Shown one piece after another: positions 1-62,522 of a DNA stretch of 64,000 bases (its first letter is position 1; each line of letters starts with the position of its first letter). This stretch comes from Acidobacteriaceae bacterium (lineage in GTDB: Bacteria > Acidobacteriota > Terriglobia > Terriglobales > Acidobacteriaceae): contig DASZBM010000002.1 of NCBI GenBank assembly GCA_035944135.1, positions 1,116,001 through 1,180,000 of the forward strand. Reading direction: 5' to 3'. A program made the translations under genes and the position numbers. The notes under the pieces are model-generated. The model worked only from the letters and a program-made list of their open reading frames with translations, was not told the DNA's origin and made no database searches.

Positions 1-84
1 TCCGAGAGAGCGAGCGCCCTCATCGGCTTCTTCGGAAAGAACGGTGTTTCACGGCCCAAACCTTTTCGTGTTGCGGTTCTCTGA
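1..84 (+). CDS. possible C-terminal end of a truncated gene
   Basis: Frame 1 is open from the first base to a TGA at 82-84. It would encode the last 27 residues of a protein entering from the left, ending in RPKPFRVAVL. The stretch is too short to recognise and has no detectable domain, so it may be a chance open frame. The rest of the stretch before the lacI-type gene (85-294) shows no convincing gene. Confidence 0.25.
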   Translation, partial: SERASALIGFFGKNGVSRPKPFRVAVL

Positions 85-294
85 ACGGCTAGTTTTAGCA
101 CAACCTGCACTGGCCTCAATGTAATTTTTGCGTCATCGATCTCCGCGAAGGCGCCTGTCACCAACCGCATCAACCCACCCGCCGGGCCTAGGATCTTGGG
201 CCATACCCAGGTGCACACAGGTAGACGTCTAAGTTGTTTCTGCTGAAGATATTGCACCCCCACGGACGCCGGGAGGGATACACTACTTCCCGTC

Positions 295-2238: not shown

Positions 2239-2354
2239 CACCCGAAGCTACCGCCCTCCACGTTCGGCACCTGTTACCCGATGGTGCCATTGGAATCCCT
2301 TGTCGGGCCGACCCATACTTTTCCTGCGGGCAACTGTCTCGCAAGGAGAGGCCG

Positions 2355-2585
2355 ATGGCGGCGAGGGATCAGGGATTTCAGGATTTCGTTCTGCTTCTGC
2401 CCACCCCTTTGCGCGCTCGCGCAGAAGAGATGGCCTCGCGTGAATCGCTCTCTCTGAATCTGTTCATCCTGATGGCAATCGCCGAGAAGCTGCAGCGCAC
2501 GCAGCTCCAGCATTGCCTGGGGATCAGTGAACGCGACGAGCTGTTGGTCGAAAGAAGCTCGTCCGGCAATCCGCTGATTCACTAA
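2355..2585 (+). CDS. small ribbon-helix-helix-like protein (HicB-type antitoxin fold)
   Basis: A 76-residue protein preceded by a good AAGGAGAG ribosome site seven bases before the ATG. The central segment, RARAEEMASRESLSLNLFIL followed by MAIAEKL, matches the pattern of Arc/CopG-type DNA-binding proteins annotated as HicB-family antitoxins (a beta strand, then a SLNxFI helix). Longer in-frame starts upstream lie in non-coding-looking sequence and were not used. No toxin gene is adjacent, so it may be an orphan regulator. Function is inferred only from the short motif. Confidence 0.55.
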   Translation: MAARDQGFQDFVLLLPTPLRARAEEMASRESLSLNLFILMAIAEKLQRTQLQHCLGISERDELLVERSSSGNPLIH

Positions 2586-2950
2586 ATCCCCTGCGTTTCC
2601 CGCTGGATACAGCGATTCCTCACCTCTGAATTTTGCGCGCAGATCGCATCGCGCGTGCGCGCGCCTGACCATCAAACGACTTGTCTGTCATCGGCTCGCG
2701 CGGCCAAGTGGAAGATTCTTCAACACTACTGTGCAGAACATTTCATGGTCACCTTAAAAGTGGTGACCCAAGTACCACAATCCACAAAACAACCGTTGGG
2801 CAACCTATGCGCTCCAACATGAGTGAGCAATGCAAACGTAGTTGGAGGCCAGCAGCACGATTTCGCTGGTCGCCGTTCCTGGGGAGGGTTTGCAGCTCAT
2901 TGGTGGCAGCACCTACAGGCACTTCGCTGGAGGCGGAGTCGAGGAGGACT
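2586..2950. other. gene-free leader upstream of the PEP-CTERM gene
   Basis: This 365-base stretch contains no credible gene. Its base composition is more A/T-rich than the flanks from about 2700 to 2850. It carries a perfect inverted repeat at 2747-2768 and ends in a strong GAGGAGGA ribosome site immediately before the ATG at 2951. It probably holds the promoter and control region of the PEP-CTERM protein gene. Confidence 0.6.
2747..2768. promoter_or_regulatory. perfect inverted repeat, candidate operator
   Basis: GGTCACC and GGTGACC are exact 7-base inverted arms separated by eight A/T-rich bases (ttaaaagt). The site lies about 180 bases upstream of the PEP-CTERM gene in its long untranslated leader. 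The symmetric shape suits a dimeric regulator, but no regulator is assigned. A weak RNA hairpin is the alternative. Confidence 0.4.
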
Positions 2951-3634
2951 ATGAAAAATACGTTTTGGGTTTTAGCCCTTGGAGCTGCGTTTGCAGCTTC
3001 AGCAACAATGGCAAAGGCAGACAGCATTATCAGTTCATCGCCAGTCAGCACGATCTCGGTGACTGGCTCTAACTTCCAGTTCAACCCCAACACCGGCATG
3101 CTCACGTTTGCGCCGAATGGGACGGGTGCCGGACTTGGGAACTACACGGTTGGCGGCGCGACTGGCACGTTCGCGACCTACTTCTCGAGCCCGAACCCGG
3201 TCACGTTCTTCCCGACGATGCCGCAGCCCGGCCCCTTCACGATTCCTCTCGGGGTCATGTCCACTCACACGCCTCCCGGTGGCTCTCTTGAAGTGCTGAG
3301 CACCACTGAGAACGGTGAGACTCTCACCTTTACCCTCACCTCCGAAGCCTGGTCGTATGGACCCGATCCTACCGGCCAGTACACGGAACTGATGTTGACC
3401 GGAACCGGTATCTTCAATCTGACCGGCGCAACCAATTACGTGCCTGAAGACGCTTCCTTCAACTTCACGGCGCAGCAGACCCCGGGTGGTTACACCGAAC
3501 TGGTGAGCTTCTCCGGTACCGGCACTGCTCTCGGCCCTGTGCCTGAGCCGAGCAGCCTTGCCCTGCTGGGAACCGGCCTGCTGGGTGCAGCAGCGTTCGC
3601 TCGCCGTCGGCTGAGCGCGCGCCTCTCCGCCTAA
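2951..3634 (+). CDS. PEP-CTERM sorting domain-containing secreted protein
   Basis: A 227-residue exported protein. It has a signal peptide (MKNTFWVLALGAAFAASATM, cleavage probably after AKA at about residue 23), a Gly/Thr/Ser/Pro-rich beta-type body without a recognised enzyme domain, and a C-terminal sorting signal. That signal is the motif VPEPSS at about residues 197-202, a hydrophobic helix LALLGTGLLGAAAF and the basic tail ARRRLSARLSA. Such tails are recognised by exosortases. A longer in-frame ORF from 2681 is rejected because the signal peptide and GAGGAGG site both fix the start at 2951. It is the only PEP-CTERM protein in the window, next to the exosortase locus, and a strong terminator follows. 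Confidence 0.93.
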   Translation: MKNTFWVLALGAAFAASATMAKADSIISSSPVSTISVTGSNFQFNPNTGMLTFAPNGTGAGLGNYTVGGATGTFATYFSSPNPVTFFPTMPQPGPFTIPLGVMSTHTPPGGSLEVLSTTENGETLTFTLTSEAWSYGPDPTGQYTELMLTGTGIFNLTGATNYVPEDASFNFTAQQTPGGYTELVSFSGTGTALGPVPEPSSLALLGTGLLGAAAFARRRLSARLSA

Positions 3635-3656
3635 CCTTCACTCCGTTATCCAACTC

Positions 3657-3690
3657 AAAGCAGGGAGCCCATTCGGGCTCCCTGCTTTTC
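3657..3690 (+). terminator. rho-independent terminator after the PEP-CTERM gene
   Basis: AGCAGGGAGCCC pairs exactly with GGGCTCCCTGCT around an ATTC loop, followed by TTTTC. It lies 23 bases after the stop codon. The stem can be extended by the flanking A and T runs. Confidence 0.9.
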
Positions 3691-3741
3691 TATGCTCCCA
3701 ACAATTGTCCCTGCTCAAAACCGCCTTGGTAGGATGAGTCG

Positions 3742-3990
3742 ATGAGATCCGATTCATCCAAGTTGACGCCAGCTCGCACTCCCGCCTTGCGCGCTCTCAT
3801 CGAGATCGTCTTCATCATGTTTCTCTTCTACTCAAATCTGCTGATGGGGGAATTCAATCGCTCCGCTGGACGGGGCAAAACCCTATACGTTGCTTTGCAG
3901 GACATCATCACTCCCGCCAACTTCGCCATCGGCCTAGCAGCTTCACTGGCGGGATACGTCACGTTCGAGTTCCTTCGCAGGAGGCTTTGA
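3742..3990 (+). CDS. small two-helix membrane protein of unknown function
   Basis: An 82-residue protein with two predicted membrane segments: about residues 19-36 (ALIEIVFIMFLFYSNLL) and 55-75 (ANFAIGLAASLAGYVTF). It ends in a basic tail FLRRRL. No family was recognised. It sits between the terminator of the PEP-CTERM gene and the convergent TPR gene of the exosortase operon, and so may be part of that locus, but nothing in the sequence proves it. The ATG at 3742 is preceded by a weak GGATGAG site. Confidence 0.6.
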   Translation: MRSDSSKLTPARTPALRALIEIVFIMFLFYSNLLMGEFNRSAGRGKTLYVALQDIITPANFAIGLAASLAGYVTFEFLRRRL

Positions 3991-4042
3991 GTCTCAATTG
4001 GTCTGATTCCGGGCTATATCAATTCGCGGTTCTCCATCCAGC

Positions 4043-4077
4043 AAAAATGCCACGCAGAGAGATTCCTCTGCGTGGCA
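4043..4077 (-). terminator. rho-independent terminator of the exosortase/TPR operon
   Basis: Read on the minus strand, TGCCACGCAGAG pairs exactly with CTCTGCGTGGCA around a six-base loop and is followed by TTTTTGC. It lies 21 bases after the stop of the TPR gene. The run of A on the plus strand sits only on this side, so it serves the minus-strand transcript. Confidence 0.88.
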
Positions 4078-4097
4078 CCGTTGCTTTGCTGTAGTGA

Positions 4098-6401
4098 CTA
4101 GAGTGTGCCGAGCGCTTTCGTAGCGTCGGTGCTGGTCTGCGTCCCAGGAGCGAGACTGACCGCCTTCTTTAGGTGATCGGCTGCGTCTGTCTTCTTCCCC
4201 ATCTTGCTGTACACCATGCCGAGGTGATACTGGATCGAGGCATCGTTGGGGTTCGTCTTGGCCGCATCCTCGAGCAGCGTGCGCGCCGATTCGTAGATGC
4301 CCTTGTGATAGTAGGCCCACGCGAGCGTATCGGCCGTACTCGGCGAGTGCGGCATCGTACGGCGTGCCGACTGTGCCAGCGAGAGCGCCACATCCACGTC
4401 CTCATTGTTCGACAGCATGAGGTAGGCAAGATTGTTCTGCGCGGTCGCGTTGTCCGGCTGAATCACGAGGGCCTTCTTGTAGTCGTCCTCTGCGCCACTC
4501 TTGTTGCCGCGGCCTTCCTCGAGCGTGCCCAGGATGATCTCCCCGCGCGGATCGTTCGGGTGCGCGCCGTTCCACTGCTGCCACTTCACGATCGCTGCAC
4601 TCGAGTTCCCGGACGCGGTCGTCGCACGCGTGTACGCCATCACCGCATCGCCGTCGGAGGGATTCAACTGCATCGCCTTCTGCGAGGAGTTCACCGCCCC
4701 ATTCACGTCCTTGGTCGCAAGCTGCAGGTCGGAAAGCTGGTCATACAAAGCGCTGTTGTTCGGACTCTTTGTGATCTCCTGCTGAACCAGGGCAAGAGCC
4801 TTGTCCGGCTGGTGCTGCAACATGTAGTAGGTTTCGAGCAACTGCAGCGCCGGCAACTGATTCGGATTGGCATCGAGCGCCTGCTGAGCAAGCTGGACAC
4901 CTTCCGGATTGCGCTTCTCGCGGAAACGCATCTCCGCAAGAGCCACCAGCGCCGCGGAGTCCTTGGGGTTCTTCTGGATTGCGCTCTGCAGGTCCGCGTC
5001 AGCCTTCTCCGGCTGGTTCTCCGCCGCCTCGGCCACACCGCGCCACAGGTACCCCTCAGAGGAGTTCGGGAAGCGCGTGATCATCGTGTTCGCAACCTGT
5101 TCCAGGAGTGCGTTGTCATGCGTCTGCGCGGCGAGCTGGGCGAGATCCTGCTGTGCCCGGAAGTTGTTGGGTTGCGCCTGCGTCACGGTGCGAAGGTTCT
5201 CCTCGGCTCCGGGAAGATCACCCTTTACTCTGTCGGTCTGCGCCAGCCAGTACTTCAGAACCAGATTGTCCGGCGAATTTTTGACCGCATTCTGCAGGAG
5301 CGTGAGCGCGTCATTCGCCTTGCCGGAGCGCAGCAGCAACATGCCGGTCATGGCCTGCACCTGCGGATCGGCGGCGGTGCTCTTGTTCTTGTTCAGATCA
5401 TCGACGATCTGCTGCACCTTGGCGAAGTTCCCCTGATCGACCAGGATCTCCGCGTACACCATCTTGATGGGCACGCTCTTTGGATATTTGTTGACGAGCT
5501 GCTCATACGTGCCGGGCGCCCGATCAAACTGCCCGGTCTGGCGATAGAAATTGAAAAGGAGCGAAGCGCCTTCCGTGGTGTCATGCAGATTGTCCGTGGC
5601 CTGCATCAAGGTGGACTCAGCCTTCGGCTTGTCACCGTGCTGGAAGTACAGGGCTGCAAGCATCATCCAGGCACGAACGTTTTTTGGCTCGATCTGCGTC
5701 GCAGACTGGGCTTCAGCCTCGGCGCCCGCCGTGTCACCTTTCTTTTCGAGCATGCTGGCGAGCAGCAGGTGAGCCGCCCCGTTCTTCGGATCGAGCTTAA
5801 CTGCCTCCCGCACCTGCTCTTCGCCGTTGTTGGCCGTCGAAGGATCGGTACCCTGGATGAGACCGAGCTGGGCGTGGAAGCCGGCGCGGTTAGGAGCGTA
5901 GGTCAGCGCCTGCTGAATATCTTTGAGCGCCTCTGGATGATCGTTGTTCGCCATCGCGATGGCTGATTTGAGGCCCCACGCATCGGCGTTCTTCGGGTCG
6001 ATCGCGAGGATCGCATTCGCCTGCTCAAGAGACTTCGGGTAAGCGTGACCGGCGAGATAAATCTGGCCGAGTTCCAGGCGCGCATCAACATTCTTCGGAT
6101 CGAGATCGACCGTCCGGCGGAGCTCCGCGTACGCACCCATCGGCGAGCCGGTCTTCAGATACGCCTTCGCGAGTTCGAAGTGCGCGTCGGCATAGTGAGG
6201 ATCGATCTTGATGGCGTTCGAGAACTGAATGATCGCTTCCTTGTCCTTGCCCTGCGCCTCATAGGCCTTTCCGCTGTTCAGGTATTTCACTTTGCGGACG
6301 TTCGGGTTGCGCGTGCATCCCTGCGTAAGCACGGCGAGTACGGTTACACAGGCAAGAGCCGCAATACGGCCCATACGGTGAGAGTGCGAGTTCTTCATCA
6401 A
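4098..6401 (-). CDS. TPR-repeat lipoprotein, PrsT-like, exosortase-associated
   Basis: A 767-residue exported protein made almost entirely of tetratricopeptide repeats from about residue 35 to the end. Repeat landmarks include YADAHFELAKAYLKTG, IDPKNADAWGLKSAIAMANN and NATAQNNLAYLMLSNNED. The N-terminus is a signal sequence with a weak lipobox ending LTQGC at about residue 29. TPR proteins of this kind (PrsT) accompany exosortase loci and are thought to scaffold exopolysaccharide or PEP-CTERM export in the periplasm. A GGAAGGAAC ribosome site precedes the start. It is the last gene of the minus-strand operon, 145 bases after epsI, and ends at a strong terminator. Confidence 0.85.
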   Translation of the reverse strand: MMKNSHSHRMGRIAALACVTVLAVLTQGCTRNPNVRKVKYLNSGKAYEAQGKDKEAIIQFSNAIKIDPHYADAHFELAKAYLKTGSPMGAYAELRRTVDLDPKNVDARLELGQIYLAGHAYPKSLEQANAILAIDPKNADAWGLKSAIAMANNDHPEALKDIQQALTYAPNRAGFHAQLGLIQGTDPSTANNGEEQVREAVKLDPKNGAAHLLLASMLEKKGDTAGAEAEAQSATQIEPKNVRAWMMLAALYFQHGDKPKAESTLMQATDNLHDTTEGASLLFNFYRQTGQFDRAPGTYEQLVNKYPKSVPIKMVYAEILVDQGNFAKVQQIVDDLNKNKSTAADPQVQAMTGMLLLRSGKANDALTLLQNAVKNSPDNLVLKYWLAQTDRVKGDLPGAEENLRTVTQAQPNNFRAQQDLAQLAAQTHDNALLEQVANTMITRFPNSSEGYLWRGVAEAAENQPEKADADLQSAIQKNPKDSAALVALAEMRFREKRNPEGVQLAQQALDANPNQLPALQLLETYYMLQHQPDKALALVQQEITKSPNNSALYDQLSDLQLATKDVNGAVNSSQKAMQLNPSDGDAVMAYTRATTASGNSSAAIVKWQQWNGAHPNDPRGEIILGTLEEGRGNKSGAEDDYKKALVIQPDNATAQNNLAYLMLSNNEDVDVALSLAQSARRTMPHSPSTADTLAWAYYHKGIYESARTLLEDAAKTNPNDASIQYHLGMVYSKMGKKTDAADHLKKAVSLAPGTQTSTDATKALGTL

Positions 6402-6546
6402 AGTTCCTTCCCAAAGCGGCTGCCAGAGCCGGCGACGTCATGCTCAACGCAAACGAACAACAACCTGATAGCTGAAAACTGTGCCGCTTCAGAATCCGAA
6501 GATCCCGCGCGCGCGCCAGCCGAACATAAGAAATTCACGTACACGA

Positions 6547-7203
6547 TTAATTTGGAATGAAGCGGGGCAGCAGTGGAGTCACCTGGTTGGCAAATTGAAT
6601 CGCGCGTTGCTGCGCCGAGTCGAGAGCCTCGTTCTGTCCCACCGGTGTGACGATGCGCACGAGAGCGCCGTCGGTGCGGTTCCAGCGGATCGCATCCAGC
6701 ATCATGTAGGCCTTCGCCTTGTAGTCGCTGGCCACGCTGCGGCCGTGTGCGAGATACCAGTACAGCACTACCTGCTTCTGGCCGGCGTTCCCGATCAGGT
6801 ACTCGCCGACCGGGTACGGGTGTCCGTCCGCCGTCGGCAGATTGATCACCTTGGAGGATAGAAACGCCCATCCTGCGCCCGGCAGGCAATTCTGCGGAGA
6901 GTGAATCGACTGCCCCGACCGCTGCGTCGGGAAGTAGCCAATGAAAAGCGATACCGGGGCGTTAAGCCGCTGCTGCACCGGATCCGGGTTTGAATAGACA
7001 CGATTGAGGAAGCGGCCGTCGCCGAGCACGGCCAGCGTCTCGCTGTCCAGCGGATAATCCTGCGAGATCAAGCCATCGATGTTCTGAGGCAGGAGCGTCA
7101 GGGGAGGCGTGGGCGGAACGTGATCCACGTCGCCGCGCAGCTTCAGCGTCGTGAGGCAGCCGGCGAGAAGAATAAGGACCACCCAGAACTTTGCAGATCT
7201 CAT
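6547..7203 (-). CDS. epsI: EpsI-family exosortase-associated protein
   Basis: A 218-residue protein with one N-terminal membrane anchor (VVLILLAGCLTTL), predicted to face the periplasm. The diagnostic EpsI sequence HSPQNCLPGAGW is at about residues 101-112, followed by PVGEYLIGNAGQKQVVLYWY and the R-x-Y-x-K region. In many XrtA proteins this domain is fused to the exosortase; here it is separate. Its ATG overlaps the exosortase stop by four bases (ATGA), showing translational coupling. Its biochemical role is not established, but it is a consistent partner of exosortases in polysaccharide loci. Confidence 0.9.
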   Translation of the reverse strand: MRSAKFWVVLILLAGCLTTLKLRGDVDHVPPTPPLTLLPQNIDGLISQDYPLDSETLAVLGDGRFLNRVYSNPDPVQQRLNAPVSLFIGYFPTQRSGQSIHSPQNCLPGAGWAFLSSKVINLPTADGHPYPVGEYLIGNAGQKQVVLYWYLAHGRSVASDYKAKAYMMLDAIRWNRTDGALVRIVTPVGQNEALDSAQQRAIQFANQVTPLLPRFIPN

Positions 7204-8117
7204 CGGCGCCCTCCCCGCAGCCTTGCCTGCAGATTCATCGCAGTGTGAAGCACGTAGAGCAGCACCAGCGATACAACAAAGATGAGCCAGCCGGAGAACT
7301 CATGGAAGAATCCAAGCGCCTTGTCCGGGTCCCAGTACTGTACGGCGAGCCCCGTGCCCACAATGCGTGCTCCGTTGGCGAGCACCGCAATCGGCAGCGC
7401 CGCGAGCGCCAGGATTACCCGTCGCGTCGTGCTCGGCTCCAGGAAATAGCCATAAAAGATGGCCGCCGTGAACAGGCTCATCAGCGAACGGATACCGCTG
7501 CAGGCCTCGGCCACCTCAAGCGGCATCGATGGCAACTGAATAATGTTGCCGTCGCGCAGCACCGGAACCCCGAAGAGCGGAAGCACAGCCGCGGCAACCT
7601 TCGAGGCGAAGATCTGCAGGGGAAACGTGATCTGGTTATAGATAACCTTCGGAAGCGGGATCGCCAGCAGCAGGACCAGCACCGGAAAGCGCAGTTCGCG
7701 GAGCATGTCCCGGCCGGCCATCATCCATATCAGCCCTGCCAGCAGCATCACCATCGAGACACGCGCCAGAAACAGCTCGGCACCGTACACACCCAGAAGC
7801 AGCGTGATGATGGCAAGGAGGACCAGCGGCAGACCCGCCCAGCTCTGTCTCACCGGGGTGTTTTTCAGCGTTTCCCGTTTCGTCCATATCAGATACGCCG
7901 AAAACAGCGGAACGAGAAACCCGTGTGAAAAGTCCGGGTCGAGATACCAGTTTTCAACGAGCTTGATCGAGATGCCCCAGTAGATCGCCACGACGATGGC
8001 AGCCAGGAGTAGCGCTGGCAGCCAGCGCTGCCAGGTTGAACGCACAGGAACCACCTCGCGCTCTTGGCCCGAGGGAGCCACAGGGGCGGGCTGGATAACC
8101 GGTTGTGTGACCATCAT
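7200..8117 (-). CDS. exosortase (PEP-CTERM processing transpeptidase)
   Basis: A polytopic inner-membrane cysteine transpeptidase with about eight membrane helices. Counting from the chosen start, the conserved catalytic residues are Cys206 (EACSGIRS), Arg251 (NGARI) and His272 (FHEFSGW). The early hallmark DPDFSHGFLVPL is at about 60-71. It should cleave PEP-CTERM tails such as that of the protein at 2951 and attach the product to a surface partner. An in-frame start at 8195 would add 26 residues without membrane or conserved character. The start at 8117 has an AGAGGA site upstream and is preferred, with 8114 as an alternative. It is first in the minus operon. Confidence 0.92.
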   Translation of the reverse strand: MMVTQPVIQPAPVAPSGQEREVVPVRSTWQRWLPALLLAAIVVAIYWGISIKLVENWYLDPDFSHGFLVPLFSAYLIWTKRETLKNTPVRQSWAGLPLVLLAIITLLLGVYGAELFLARVSMVMLLAGLIWMMAGRDMLRELRFPVLVLLLAIPLPKVIYNQITFPLQIFASKVAAAVLPLFGVPVLRDGNIIQLPSMPLEVAEACSGIRSLMSLFTAAIFYGYFLEPSTTRRVILALAALPIAVLANGARIVGTGLAVQYWDPDKALGFFHEFSGWLIFVVSLVLLYVLHTAMNLQARLRGGRR

Positions 8118-23294: not shown

Positions 23295-26123
23295 ATGCAC
23301 ACGTTTCATCGGCTCGCTCGGCTCCCGGCTATCTCCTCTCTGTTTCTGCTGTCGTGTCTCTCTTTCGCACAGAGTCCCGCTCCGCGCATCCGCGGCCCCA
23401 TCGAAGCCGCTCCGTCCGTCACCCTCGCAGGCTCGCTCGACCCGCACATCCGCACCGCCGATGACCTCGGCCCCCTCCCGCCCGACACACGCATCGCCGG
23501 CGTGACCCTTGTCTTCAACCGCAGCGCCGCGCAGCAGGCCGACCTCGACCAGCTCGTCGCCGGCCAAACCAACCCCGCGTCGCCCCTCTTCCATCATTGG
23601 CTCACTCCCGATGAGTTCGGCGCTCGCTTCAGCATCGCCGCCTCGGACATCGCCGCCGCCCAAACCTGGCTCCAGTCCCACGGCTTCACCATCGACGCCG
23701 TCTCACGCGACCGCATTACCTTCTCCGGCAACGCCGCCCAAATCCAGCAGGCCTTCGGCGCCGAGCTCCACCGCTTCCGCTCGACCACCGCCAACCAATC
23801 CGAGCTCCACTTCGCTCCCGCCGCCGACCTCTCGCTCCCTCCCGCGCTCGCGCCCGTCACCGCTGCCGTCCTCCATCTCTCCGACTTCCGGCCCAAACCC
23901 AGCGTCCGGCCGCATCCGGCGTATACCACGCGCTCCACCCAGAGCCACTTCCTCGATCCGCAGGACATCGGCAACATGTACGACATCTGGCCGCTGCTCG
24001 GAAGCGATAGCCTCACTGACGGCCAGGGTCTCGCCATCGTCGGTCAGTCCTTCGTCCAGACCGGGTACGGCTCCATGGTTTATGTCTTCGACACCTATCT
24101 CAGCGGCGACCGTCAGATCACTCCCGTACTCGTCCCAGGTTCGGGCGTAGAAGCGATCTTTGATGGCGACCTCGGCGAATCCGAAATCGACCTCGAATAC
24201 GGCAATGTCTTCGCCGGCGGCGCCAACATCTTTTTCGTCTACACCGGCTCCAGCGCCAATTACAGCGTCTTTGACGCGCTCTCCTACGCCATCACCCAGA
24301 ACATCGCTCCTGTTATCAGCATCAGCTATTCCGAGTGCGAGACACTTCTGAGCCCCAGCGACGCCCAGCAGTACAACGCCCTCCTCGATCAGGCAACCGC
24401 CCAGGGTCAGACCATCATCGCCGCCTCCGGTGATAGCGGGGCGACTTCTTGCGCCGCCTACAGCACCTCAAACGGTATTACCGCCGCGCAGCAGGAAGCC
24501 TTGGCCGTCGGCTTTCCCGCCAGCAGCCCGTATGTCACGTCCGTCGGTGGCACCCAGATGGCGCCCGCGACCTTCGCTCCCGGAACCAACTCCTATTGGA
24601 GTTCCGCATCTTCTTCCAGCGACAACATCCAGTCGCTGATCGGCTATGCGCCTGAGATTGTCTGGAACGAAAGCTCCCCGACACTGGGCATCGTTGCCTC
24701 GGGCGGCGGCAGCAGCTCCTTCTTTTCGCGGCCTGCGTGGCAGGCTGGCGTCCCGGGCATTCCTGCGGGCAGCTTCCGTCTCATACCTGACGTCGCCCTT
24801 CAAGCTTCCGTCGCCAATCCCGGCTACATCATCTGTTCGGATGACCCCTACATCGCCGGCCCGCATAACGACTGCGATAACAGCCTGCAATTCGGCAACT
24901 CTTATCTGCTCGACGGCGGCACCAGCTTCGCTGCTCCGATCTTCGCGGGAGCTCTCGTCGCTCTCAGCGGCTCCAAACACGCTTATGGCCTGGGCAATAT
25001 CAATCCCGTCCTGTACAGCCTGGCCGCGCAGCCTGCCATCTACAGCACGGCCTTCCACGACATCACCTCCGGCACAACCGCTTGTGGCTCGGGCGACGGC
25101 AACTGCGGAACGGCTGGCCAATCCAACTACGCCGCTGGCATCGGTTACGACCTCGCCACCGGCCTGGGCAGCGTCGACTTCGCCAGGCTCGCCGCCGCTT
25201 GGCCACCCACCCCCACCGCCAGCCTCATCCCTACCTACATCTCCTTCTCCGGCTCCGCGTCCTCTGTGAATCCCGGGGCGCCGCTGGCGCTCGAGATGAC
25301 CGTCTGGCCCATCAATCCCACGCCCTCCAGCACGCTGGCCACGGGAACCCTGTCGGTCGCTATCGACGGGCATGTCATCGCCTCCTCGCTTTCGCTGCCC
25401 ACCAGCTCCCTCAACGCCGGCGCTACCGTCACTGACACTGTTTCCTCGCCAACCACCGGCATAACGCACATCGTCACCGCGAAGTACTCCGGCGACGCAA
25501 CGCACGCTCCCGCCACATCCACCTTCGTCGTCACCGAGGGCTCGACCATCGCAACCGGCACCGTGACCATCTCGGCAGACAGTCTCAGCCTATCCGGCAA
25601 CAGCACCGGAACCACGCAGCTCACGATCACGCCATCCGGCGGCTACAACGGCATGCTCACCTGGTCCTCCAACTACAGCGGCGGCACAGAAGACATGGCC
25701 ATCTGCTATGTCGTCAAGGCTCCGCCAGTCAATGGTCCAACTACCGGGACCATCAACATCGGCGTGGGGACCGCCTGCAGCTCGCCCTCAGGCTCGATGG
25801 CTCCGTCCAGCGTGCAGCGATCCTCTCTACGCCAGGCAAACCAGCCGTCGCGCGGAGCACCCGCGGCAGCCACCTTCTTCGCGCTTCTTCTCTTTGGCAT
25901 GCTTCCAGCGCGGCGTGACCGGAAATTTCTGCCCACCCTCTGCACTGCCTTGCTCGCCGCCATCGTCGTCACGCTTATCGGCTGCGGCTCGGGGACCGGA
26001 GGTAGCGGAAGCGGAGGCGGCGGCAGCCCAACGCCGCAGGTCTACACCATCACGATCATGGCCAAGGACTCCGTAAACACCACCATCACGGCGTCCACCA
26101 ACTTCACTCTCACCGTCCAATAG
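23295..26123 (+). CDS. secreted S53 (sedolisin/kumamolisin-type) serine-carboxyl peptidase with Ig-like and C-terminal tail domains
   Basis: A 942-residue exported acid protease. The signal peptide is at about residues 10-26. An activation propeptide spans about 45-200 (HHWLTPDEFGARFS and the following motif). The S53 catalytic domain follows with Glu295 and Asp299 (GESEIDLEY), oxyanion Asp380 (ASGDSGATSC) and nucleophile Ser544 (GGTSFAAP). Ig-like beta repeats occupy roughly 640-855. The tail has a hydrophobic segment, an Arg cluster (LPARRDRK, 870-877), a second hydrophobic segment ending LIGCG (about 892-898), a Gly/Ser linker and a short beta domain ending FTLTVQ. The tail architecture recurs in the protein at 60111-62522. 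Confidence 0.9.
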   Translation: MHTFHRLARLPAISSLFLLSCLSFAQSPAPRIRGPIEAAPSVTLAGSLDPHIRTADDLGPLPPDTRIAGVTLVFNRSAAQQADLDQLVAGQTNPASPLFHHWLTPDEFGARFSIAASDIAAAQTWLQSHGFTIDAVSRDRITFSGNAAQIQQAFGAELHRFRSTTANQSELHFAPAADLSLPPALAPVTAAVLHLSDFRPKPSVRPHPAYTTRSTQSHFLDPQDIGNMYDIWPLLGSDSLTDGQGLAIVGQSFVQTGYGSMVYVFDTYLSGDRQITPVLVPGSGVEAIFDGDLGESEIDLEYGNVFAGGANIFFVYTGSSANYSVFDALSYAITQNIAPVISISYSECETLLSPSDAQQYNALLDQATAQGQTIIAASGDSGATSCAAYSTSNGITAAQQEALAVGFPASSPYVTSVGGTQMAPATFAPGTNSYWSSASSSSDNIQSLIGYAPEIVWNESSPTLGIVASGGGSSSFFSRPAWQAGVPGIPAGSFRLIPDVALQASVANPGYIICSDDPYIAGPHNDCDNSLQFGNSYLLDGGTSFAAPIFAGALVALSGSKHAYGLGNINPVLYSLAAQPAIYSTAFHDITSGTTACGSGDGNCGTAGQSNYAAGIGYDLATGLGSVDFARLAAAWPPTPTASLIPTYISFSGSASSVNPGAPLALEMTVWPINPTPSSTLATGTLSVAIDGHVIASSLSLPTSSLNAGATVTDTVSSPTTGITHIVTAKYSGDATHAPATSTFVVTEGSTIATGTVTISADSLSLSGNSTGTTQLTITPSGGYNGMLTWSSNYSGGTEDMAICYVVKAPPVNGPTTGTINIGVGTACSSPSGSMAPSSVQRSSLRQANQPSRGAPAAATFFALLLFGMLPARRDRKFLPTLCTALLAAIVVTLIGCGSGTGGSGSGGGGSPTPQVYTITIMAKDSVNTTITASTNFTLTVQ

Positions 26124-60110: not shown

Positions 60111-62522
60111 TTATTCGACCGCGAGCGTGACGTTGGTGGTATGCACTACGACATTGCCGGCGAGGTTGGTCCCGGTAGCCTGCACCACGATCGCGTAGTT
60201 GGTCACCGGCAGGACGGATTCAGGCGCTGTGCGGGCCCCGCAGCCTGTGACACCGAAGAGCCCGGCGGCGACAATCAACACCAGAAGGAGCGGAAGAGTT
60301 CGCCTGCGTCGTAGAGCGAGCAGGCAGATTGCGAGGCTGGAGGCGAATGCGAAATCCGGCCGAGGGATGGCGCGGTGCGCGGTCGTCGCAGGCGCAACAA
60401 TTGTCATCGTGACCGGCGCAGTGGAGGCTCCGGGCACAACGGCCGGCGGAGAGAAGCTGATCGTCGCTCCCGCAGGCAACCCCGTGGCGCTGAACGTGAC
60501 CGCACCTGTGAACGGCGATCCCTGAGAGGCAACCGAAAGCGCGAAGCTGGCAGATGACCCCGCGATCGCCGTTTGTTGCGTGTTCCCGGTCACACCGATC
60601 GTGAAGTCCGGCATGGCATTCACGGCCTCGTTGACCGTTGCCGATGTGCTCGCTCGGAAATTTGCGTCGCCCGAGTACGAGACAGAAAGTGTGTGATTGC
60701 CTGTTGCAGGGTTGAGCTCCACGACCGATGCCGATCCGTTGATCAGCACCGCCGTCCCAACCACGTTGCTGCCGTCCAGAAATTCCACCGTGCCCGTCGG
60801 CGTGCCCGAAGTCGTGGAGGCGACCTGGGCATTCAATTGAATCGGCAACGACGCGTAGGCGGTCGACGGAGGAGCGAAGATCAATTTCGTGGCTGCTGGA
60901 ACGATCGTGAGAGTTCCAGAGCTTGGCGCGATCGACAGTGTGTAGTTTGAGCTGACCGCGCCGGTGAGCTTCGCCGTGATCGGATAAGTCCCGACCGTAG
61001 GCATCCCGGACGAAGCCGCAGTGAACACCACCGAGACATTCGATTCGTCCTGTGGCAGAACTCCCACGAGCGTGCCGTTGAACGCGGGAAGCGGCGCGCC
61101 GTAGCTGGCAGTCGCCGCTACAGCCGTAGCGGTCACGGGTGCGGGCGAGATGACGATGGATGATGTTGCGGTGCTTGAAAGATGGAGACCATCGCCGCCA
61201 TACAGCGCGGTGAGATTGTGGCTGCCGGCGCTCAGGGTCGGCAGCGCCACTGTTGCGCTGCCCTGTGCGAGCGCAGCCGTCGCAACTGGCGTAACGCCGT
61301 CGAGGATCTGGACCGAACCCTGCGGCAGCGCAGGACTGCCCGCAGCGGTGATAACAGCCTGCGCGGTGCCGTAGACCGCGTTGGGTGTGGACTGCGCGAG
61401 CGTCGTTGTCCGCCCCGACGGCGCGCCCAGCGAGTAGAGCTTGCCGTCGCTGAATACAATCTGCACGCTGTGATTGGCCGCGTCCGCGATGACTGGCCAG
61501 CCGAAGTTGGAGACCGCTGCGCCCGCCGGGAGATTCTGCGGTGATGTCAGAGCGATTGAGCCATCAGGCGCGAGACCCTGCAGGCCGCCGCCCGCGACAG
61601 TTGTGATCGTTCCGCCAGCTGCGATGCGCCGCAGGCGATGGTTGTTCTCGTCGGCGATAAAGAGGTCGTTTGCGCTGTCGATCGCAAGCCCAGTGGGGCG
61701 GTTGAGTTGCGCGGCTGTTGCGGGGCCACTGTCGCCGGAGTTGCCGCCCACGCCGGTACCCGCATAAGTAGAGATAATTCCCGCGGCGCTGATAACCCGC
61801 ACGCGCTGGTTCGCTGAATCGGCAATGAAAACGCGGCCGTCAGAGGTCGCAACGATGCCGGAGGGTTCGTTGAGCTCGGCTGCTGTGGCCGCGCCGCCGT
61901 CGCCCGCGAAGCCTTGCGTGCCATTCCCCGCAATCGTCGCGATCTGCCCGGCACTGATGCGCCGCACACGATCATTGCCTTGGTCGCAGACAAGGAGCGC
62001 GCCGGTTGCGTCAATCGCGAGAGCGACGGGATGATTCAGCGACGCGGACGTTGCGAGGCTGCCGTCGCCGCTGTATCCGCGCGCACCGTTGCCTCCAAAT
62101 GTGGTGATGCTGCCACTCTTCACGGCGCGAATGCGCTGATTGCCGGTGTCGGCGATATACAGCGTGCCATCCGCACCGATGGCAACCGACGACGGAGAGT
62201 TCAACTCCGCAGCGCTGGCTGGGCCGCCATCGCCTGAGAATCCCTGCGTGCCGTTCCCTGCGACTGCCGTGATGGCGCCGCCAATAGAAATTTCGAAAAC
62301 CTGATTACGCGCGCTGTCGGCGATGAACAGATCGCCCGCGGAATCGTATGCGATGCCTGCCGGGCGCAGCAGCGGCGATGAGGCGGTCTGCGCCTGCGCC
62401 GACGACATTGCGACAACCGCAAAGCTCAGCGCAGCCCAGACAAACTTCAGCCCTCGAAGCCCGGCGACCAGGAATCCTCCTCTGCGTTTATCGCGGATTC
62501 TGGGTCGATCATACCGTCGCAC
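60111..62522 (-). CDS. secreted NHL-propeller and Ig-like repeat protein with C-terminal tail
   Basis: An 803-residue exported protein. The signal sequence is at about residues 27-45 (FVWAALSFAVVAMSSAQAQ). Six NHL-type repeats follow (about 50-370: LRPAGIAYDSAGDLFIADSA, LNSPSSVAIGADGTLYIADT, LNEPSGIVATSDGRVFIADS), then Ig-like repeats (about 385-715), including bacterial Ig-like-domain-3 types (YGTAQAVITAAGSPALPQGS; PTGTVEFLDGSNVVG). The tail has a hydrophobic segment, RRRR (about 737-740), a second hydrophobic segment ending VTGCG (about 757-761), and a short beta domain ending NVTLAVE. The same tail layout is seen in the S53 peptidase at 23295-26123. Confidence 0.88.
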   Translation of the reverse strand: MRRYDRPRIRDKRRGGFLVAGLRGLKFVWAALSFAVVAMSSAQAQTASSPLLRPAGIAYDSAGDLFIADSARNQVFEISIGGAITAVAGNGTQGFSGDGGPASAAELNSPSSVAIGADGTLYIADTGNQRIRAVKSGSITTFGGNGARGYSGDGSLATSASLNHPVALAIDATGALLVCDQGNDRVRRISAGQIATIAGNGTQGFAGDGGAATAAELNEPSGIVATSDGRVFIADSANQRVRVISAAGIISTYAGTGVGGNSGDSGPATAAQLNRPTGLAIDSANDLFIADENNHRLRRIAAGGTITTVAGGGLQGLAPDGSIALTSPQNLPAGAAVSNFGWPVIADAANHSVQIVFSDGKLYSLGAPSGRTTTLAQSTPNAVYGTAQAVITAAGSPALPQGSVQILDGVTPVATAALAQGSATVALPTLSAGSHNLTALYGGDGLHLSSTATSSIVISPAPVTATAVAATASYGAPLPAFNGTLVGVLPQDESNVSVVFTAASSGMPTVGTYPITAKLTGAVSSNYTLSIAPSSGTLTIVPAATKLIFAPPSTAYASLPIQLNAQVASTTSGTPTGTVEFLDGSNVVGTAVLINGSASVVELNPATGNHTLSVSYSGDANFRASTSATVNEAVNAMPDFTIGVTGNTQQTAIAGSSASFALSVASQGSPFTGAVTFSATGLPAGATISFSPPAVVPGASTAPVTMTIVAPATTAHRAIPRPDFAFASSLAICLLALRRRRTLPLLLVLIVAAGLFGVTGCGARTAPESVLPVTNYAIVVQATGTNLAGNVVVHTTNVTLAVE

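Follow-up and report, generated by a model that had tools for sequence, protein, structure and literature searches.

The window, meaning the whole stretch of 64,000 nucleotides analysed here from a genome of the Acidobacteriaceae (contig DASZBM010000002.1), encodes two secreted proteins with different domains and the same kind of C-terminus. One is a kumamolisin-type peptidase of family S53, in which a domain search finds Pro-kuma_activ (pro-kumamolisin); the other carries NHL repeats with MBG and Big_3_5 domains (domain search), and the two are referred to below as the S53 and NHL proteins. By eye, each begins with an ordinary signal peptide without a lipobox. Both tails present, in the same order, a hydrophobic segment, an Arg cluster, a hydrophobic helix, a lipobox Cys, a linker and two beta strands (Table 1). 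The S53 tail reads ...FFALLLFGMLP-ARRDRK-FLPTLCTALLAAIVVTLIG-C-GSG..., followed by the linker and strands ending in TLTV, with the lipobox context L-I-G-C-G. The NHL tail reads ...SSLAICLLAL-RRRR-TLPLLLVLIVAAGLFGVTG-C-GAR..., followed by the linker and strands ending in TLAV, with the context V-T-G-C-G. This is the shared anatomy that the initial annotation had described from the letters.

Table 1. Features of the two tail-bearing genes, with frames lying near extra Lgt genes in the last line. Positions are those of the window unless a locus is named.
Feature	Position	Strand	Evidence
S53 (kumamolisin-type) peptidase gene with tail, 942 aa	23295..26123	+	Pro-kuma_activ; NF058595 at residues 847-942
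S53 N-half of split Ig-like domain, six strands, residues 754-828	25554..25778	+	intact-Ig HMM positions 2-62, 12.3 bits; AF2 strands 2-73 of tail
S53 first hydrophobic helix	25863..25898	+	AF2 helix 104-115 of tail
S53 basic cluster RRDRK, residues 873-877	25911..25925	+	sequence; tail position 123 is R in at least 90% of 84 rows
S53 second hydrophobic helix (signal-peptide-like h-region)	25929..25976	+	AF2 helix 126-141 of tail
S53 lipobox Cys897 (LIGC, then G)	25983..25985	+	invariant column C144
S53 C-half of Ig-like domain, last two strands	26034..26120	+	intact-Ig HMM positions 71-96, 8.6 bits; AF2 strands 162-172 and 179-188; model 1..189 aligns to one solved Ig domain
NHL / MBG / Big_3_5 protein gene with tail, 803 aa	60111..62522	-	domains; NF058595 29.4 bits (L012)
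NHL N-half of split Ig-like domain	60396..60608	-	intact-Ig query residues 1-72, E 1.3e-4; HMM 38.6 bits, positions 8-71; AF2 pLDDT 97-98
NHL first hydrophobic helix	60312..60353	-	AF2 helix 86-99
NHL RRRR cluster	60300..60311	-	sequence
NHL second hydrophobic helix	60252..60296	-	AF2 helix 105-119
NHL lipobox Cys (VTGC, then G)	60240..60242	-	invariant column C123
NHL C-half of Ig-like domain, last two strands	60117..60203	-	HMM 3.2 bits only, at positions 69-96; AF2 strands 136-147 and 153-164, pLDDT 89 at start, 97-98 after
NHL Asp at N-half start, partner of C-half His	60606..60608	-	covarying pair
NHL His in C-half, partner of N-half Asp	60141..60143	-	covarying pair
ECF-sigma-like and kinase- or TPR-like frames	L216:5112-5738 (-), 2338-5115 (+); L249:291-890 (-), 6178-8004 (+)		by eye

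NCBIfam has an existing model of this tail, NF058595 (invert_tail, "lipo-invert putative C-terminal anchoring domain"; 113 positions, curated cut-off 37 bits), whose hydrophobic segment, Arg cluster, second helix, Cys and final strands are those of the window tails. The S53 tail lies above the cut-off (44 bits as a protein, 49.5 bits in the genome search) and the NHL tail below it (29.4 bits over model positions 4-112 in the genome search; absent at E up to 1 in the protein search). The NHL tail is a divergent relative of NF058595, with the same anatomy and fold, rather than a counted member. To judge from match lengths, the model begins close to the last N-half strand and leaves most of the preceding Ig domain outside. 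The genome that contains the window has nine matches above the cut-off, among them an uninterrupted Ig domain with neither hairpin nor Cys (L009, C1:280666-280782; 39.1 bits at model positions 74-112), which is a false positive of the model. By eye, the full tail anatomy is present in 13 proteins of this genome (L001-L008, L010-L013 and L015). A further weak match there (L014, C2:886590-886874; 26.1 bits) contains an in-frame TGA and is possibly a broken or frameshifted copy.

The initial annotation knew the tail from two proteins and had named as a test whether a family exists beyond this genome, which proved to be the case. Within the genus, each of 21 genomes has the tail (E up to 1e-4). 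In the class it occurs in 184 of 299 genomes at E up to 1e-8, the window's family contributing 73. A sample of the phylum has it in 33 of 297 genomes at E up to 1e-10; 31 of these come from the window's family and the other 2 from a family that does not belong to the class. No match in the 14 control genomes exceeds the cut-off, although below it all 14 give weak matches when E may be as high as 10, and one still does at 1e-4. Among named genomes, six relatives were found (one being the query's own record), all bearing acidobacterial titles, two of them Terriglobia and one Acidipila, and a search of plasmid sequences with the NHL tail gave no match.

For a description of the family, tails were collected from the loci of the three genome searches, 80 further stretches and the intact-domain loci. 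A tail HMM, whose 28 seed tails were chosen by a Cys-requiring pattern, matched 164 frames, of which 10 were excluded for not ending like a tail: the plain Ig domains L016, L092, L093, L095, L096 and L097, one frame of L069, and L006, L015 and L111, which by eye do have hairpin and Cys but end differently. Removal of redundancy left 148 frames, and removal of the intact Ig domain L090 left 147 tails, from which alignments of 130 (A1), 120 (A2) and 84 (A3) were made. Frames without Cys at the lipobox column were excluded, so the presence of the Cys in 147/147 tails is to be read with that rule; the only frame concerned was L090, an uninterrupted Ig domain. The residue before the Cys is Gly, Ala or Ser in 147/147 (G 96, A 32, S 19), and position -3 is loosely lipobox-like (L in 53/147, also T 8, Q 6, S 5). 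Position +2 is G in 108, S in 19, N in 6, A in 4, T in 4, I in 3, L in 2 and D in 1, that is, Gly or Ser in 127/147. At least three Arg or Lys residues stand within the 12 residues preceding the second helix in 146/147 tails, the last basic residue lies 13-23 aa from the Cys (mean 18), and the chain ends 34-53 aa after it (median 43). In the 130-tail alignment, where mean column identity is 20%, the Cys is the sole invariant column.

Bacterial lipoproteins are taken as made from N-terminal signals. The tail shares with a type II signal peptide the basic n-region, the hydrophobic h-region, the Gly, Ala or Ser before the Cys and the mostly Gly +2 residue, but it is internal, lies close to the C-terminus, follows a stop-transfer-like helix and sits inside a folded domain, and the proteins bear a separate N-terminal signal. 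A simple scan of 30 tail proteins whose frame start lies inside the DNA examined found no N-terminal lipobox, and by eye these mostly begin with ordinary signal peptides (L069, L108 and L114 have no clear signal). The L015/L216 protein, outside these 30 and adjoining an extra Lgt gene, has a possible N-terminal lipobox. Candidates for N-terminal lipoproteins at the same loci, for comparison of lipoboxes, number six only, at least one being an Lgt by eye. Of the initial annotation's interpretation, an internal element resembling a type II signal, close to the C-terminus of proteins that have an N-terminal signal as well, is supported, and in a large family.

The match of L009 above the NF058595 cut-off suggested that the strands after the Cys belong to a common Ig-like domain. 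As a query, this intact domain matches the stretch of the NHL protein before the hairpin (query residues 1-72, E 1.3e-4), and in further proteins it matches both hairpin flanks, for example with residues 1-68 and 70-97 in one frame of genome G299. An HMM built from 47 intact Ig domains (96 positions) aligns as two pieces around the hairpin in 137/147 tails; the other 10 give the N piece only (5), the C piece only (4) or a match crossing the hairpin (1). The N piece ends at positions 66-75 of 96 in 115/137 and the C piece starts at positions 64-72 in 116/137, with a hairpin insert of 41-82 aa (median 68). Shuffled parts almost never match the scores of the real pieces, while reversed C-parts reach 10 bits in 24%, which points to some effect of composition on the score, and for the NHL C-half the HMM score alone is weak. 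Across the hairpin, an Asp at the start of the N-half covaries with a His in the C-half. No Pfam model was above cut-off for the two intact Ig domains or the four tails tried.

AF2 predicts one Ig sandwich in both window proteins, with less certainty for the S53 tail (mean pLDDT 75.7, pTM 0.55) and with a pLDDT of 63 for the block of the NHL tail that contains the Cys. The S53 tail model, over 1..189, aligns with one solved Ig domain (PDB 2ber, residues 405-502), presumably the Ig-like domain of the Micromonospora viridifaciens sialidase, in which, by difference, the matched stretch is continuous and has no membrane insert. Sequence comparison and structure prediction together indicate that the parts before and after the hairpin form one beta sandwich, which is an ordinary Ig domain split at one site. 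The "short beta domain" that the initial annotation placed at the C-terminus is therefore present as strands and not as a domain of its own, being the end of the split Ig domain. Nor does the predicted fold bury the Cys in an ordinary domain, the outcome that would have spoken against an internal signal: AF2 places it in coil 3-4 residues past the second helix and outside the strands, at low confidence there. We suggest that the NCBIfam model should take in the Ig half before the hairpin.

An Lgt gene adjoins a tail gene in a few genomes. The genome of the window encodes one LspA, a LolA and three Lgt-like genes, of which an extra copy on contig C1 (L216:8770-9546) is 30% identical to the main copy and starts 66 bases past the stop of a lipo-invert gene that runs in the same direction. 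Used as a query against the 299 class genomes, this extra Lgt has a match in 135 at E up to 1e-15, with two matches in 6. Copies in G111 (L250) and G269 (L249) also adjoin lipo-invert genes, convergently and about 18 bases apart in G111 and on the same strand in G269, where about 100 bases separate the tail gene from the Lgt open frame. The three tail-linked Lgts form one group apart from 30 main-clade Lgts (SH-aLRT 94), an uncertain placement in which long branches meet. Since the tail HMM had no match in L216-L218, a pattern scan was added for the Lgt loci; the tails of L216 and L249, for which the HMM gave nothing in long frames, were found by pattern and eye, and for shorter pieces of the L216 gene the HMM gives 33-34 bits. 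Near the extra Lgts of G187, G094 and G182 (contig ends), neither HMM nor pattern finds a tail in the stretches examined, and 28 other class loci with an Lgt match contain no HMM tail, mostly within 1500 bases per side and less in L242, L245 and L247. Pattern-only matches near Lgt genes were rejected in L234 and L235, which by eye are multi-helix membrane proteins, and in L223, a small frame overlapping the Lgt frame. Against plasmids, the Lgt paralog gives five weak matches in other organisms. The link between tail and extra Lgt is thus sparse.

Two further observations concern these loci. The third Lgt-like gene of the window's genome (L217:6711-7484, minus strand; 60.6 bits) is very divergent, with no tail gene by HMM or pattern in the 14 kb examined. 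Two of the three linked loci, which come from two genera, have by eye an ECF-sigma-like frame and a kinase- or TPR-like frame near the lipo-invert/Lgt pair (Table 1).

We infer topology, lipidation, cleavage and final location of the tail proteins from these features, and consider it likely that the tail is a self-clamped internal lipoprotein anchor in a loop of the C-terminal Ig-like domain. Lgt would lipidate this anchor and LspA would probably cut it, so that an Ig domain of two chains results. Exported by way of its N-terminal signal peptide, the protein would be halted during translocation by the first hydrophobic segment together with the Arg cluster, the latter staying on the cytoplasmic side. 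The next hydrophobic segment would then serve as an internal type II signal and carry the last 34-53 residues back out, where the Cys would receive diacylglyceryl from Lgt and LspA would probably cut in front of it. The two strands after the Cys would fold back onto the Ig strands that precede the hairpin, closing a single sandwich, so that the protein would stay fixed to its lipidated end even if the chain were cut. Under the E. coli +2 rule, which may not hold in this host, Gly or Ser would favour release to the outer membrane, a move that would require the first helix either to be cut away or to travel with the protein. With slightly less than even confidence, we further read the tail as a self-splitting anchor: LspA would cut the exported protein, and the split Ig domain would hold the long chain non-covalently to a short triacylated two-strand peptide, giving C-terminal lipoproteins, in some genomes by way of a dedicated second Lgt encoded beside its client.

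A plain membrane hairpin, anchoring the split Ig domain with a Cys that is lipidated by Lgt or left bare and a chain that is never cut, has in its favour that the split fold alone would hold an uncut chain together and that no further enzyme would be needed. We regard it as unlikely, because it needs neither an invariant Cys at the outer end of the second helix (130 tails) nor the Gly, Ala or Ser that always precedes it, and extra Lgt genes adjoin three lipo-invert genes. Far less probable is that an LspA cut sets free a small lipoprotein or peptide that acts independently, in a role of its own. The lipobox features would suit such a product, but the piece from the Cys onwards matches the last two strands of the Ig domain begun before the hairpin, and through the Asp-His covariation it is tied to the sequence that precedes the hairpin. 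Among the roles offered by the initial annotation, a membrane hairpin with a lipidation site fits best, and the release of a small lipoprotein badly.

Known C-terminal sorting systems offer partial likenesses. PEP-CTERM signals end after a basic tail. A hydrophobic segment followed by an Arg cluster recalls these exosortase substrates, and exosortase genes occur in 181/299 class genomes; the lipo-invert tail, however, does not end at its basic cluster but continues for about 65 residues in both window proteins. Nor do tail and exosortase associate: among the 299 genomes both occur in 113, the tail only in 71, exosortase only in 68 and neither in 47 (odds ratio 1.1, p 0.72), so the distinction from PEP-CTERM drawn in the initial annotation is borne out. 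Rhombosortase was above cut-off in 0/299 class genomes, which counts against a GlyGly-CTERM-like signal, general rhomboid-like matches being found in 295/299. A signal for exosortase or rhombosortase is on these grounds more improbable still than a freed lipoprotein. The window itself has an exosortase match (PF09721, 7245-8003, minus strand, E 9.3e-80), one of three in its genome; no link to the tail was found. The MYXO-CTERM tag of the myxosortase system (PMC11980579) is a C-terminal sorting tag with which the tail shares an invariant Cys, a membrane helix, an Arg-rich stretch and predicted lipidation; there the order is Cys, helix, Arg and end, whereas here it is helix, Arg, helix, Cys and strands. 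In both window tails the Cys lies past the second helix, and the alignment of the 147 tails took this order as its basis. That two low-complexity tails resemble each other by chance has a negligible probability: strands rich in Thr, Val and Ser and hydrophobic stretches are common in such proteins, and composition does contribute to the C-part scores, but the shuffle controls and, decisively, the counts of 184/299 class genomes against 0/14 controls rule it out.

The tail is known already as an NCBIfam model; the searches of open-licence literature described here did not bring up the division of the Ig domain, covariation between its two halves or an extra Lgt next to a tail gene. Among open-licence papers, nothing was found on lipo-invert, invert_tail or NF058595, on Acidobacteria with PEP-CTERM, protein sorting or lipoprotein, or on Acidobacteriota with Lgt. 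Among the papers listed, titles and abstract openings did not yield this arrangement under internal or C-terminal lipobox, C-terminal sorting or split Ig domains, nor this tail under Acidobacteria with lipobox and C-terminal.

These results describe a putative internal lipidation signal built into a domain loop near the C-terminus of 13 proteins of one genome, counted by eye, and present in 184/299 genomes of the class. If the chain is cut, the products would be two-chain lipoproteins joined by an Ig fold, and if the self-splitting reading is true, secreted enzymes and proteins with Ig repeats would be turned into lipoproteins through their C-terminal ends. Such an anchor, if true, would explain how these bacteria, a soil group, hold many large secreted proteins.
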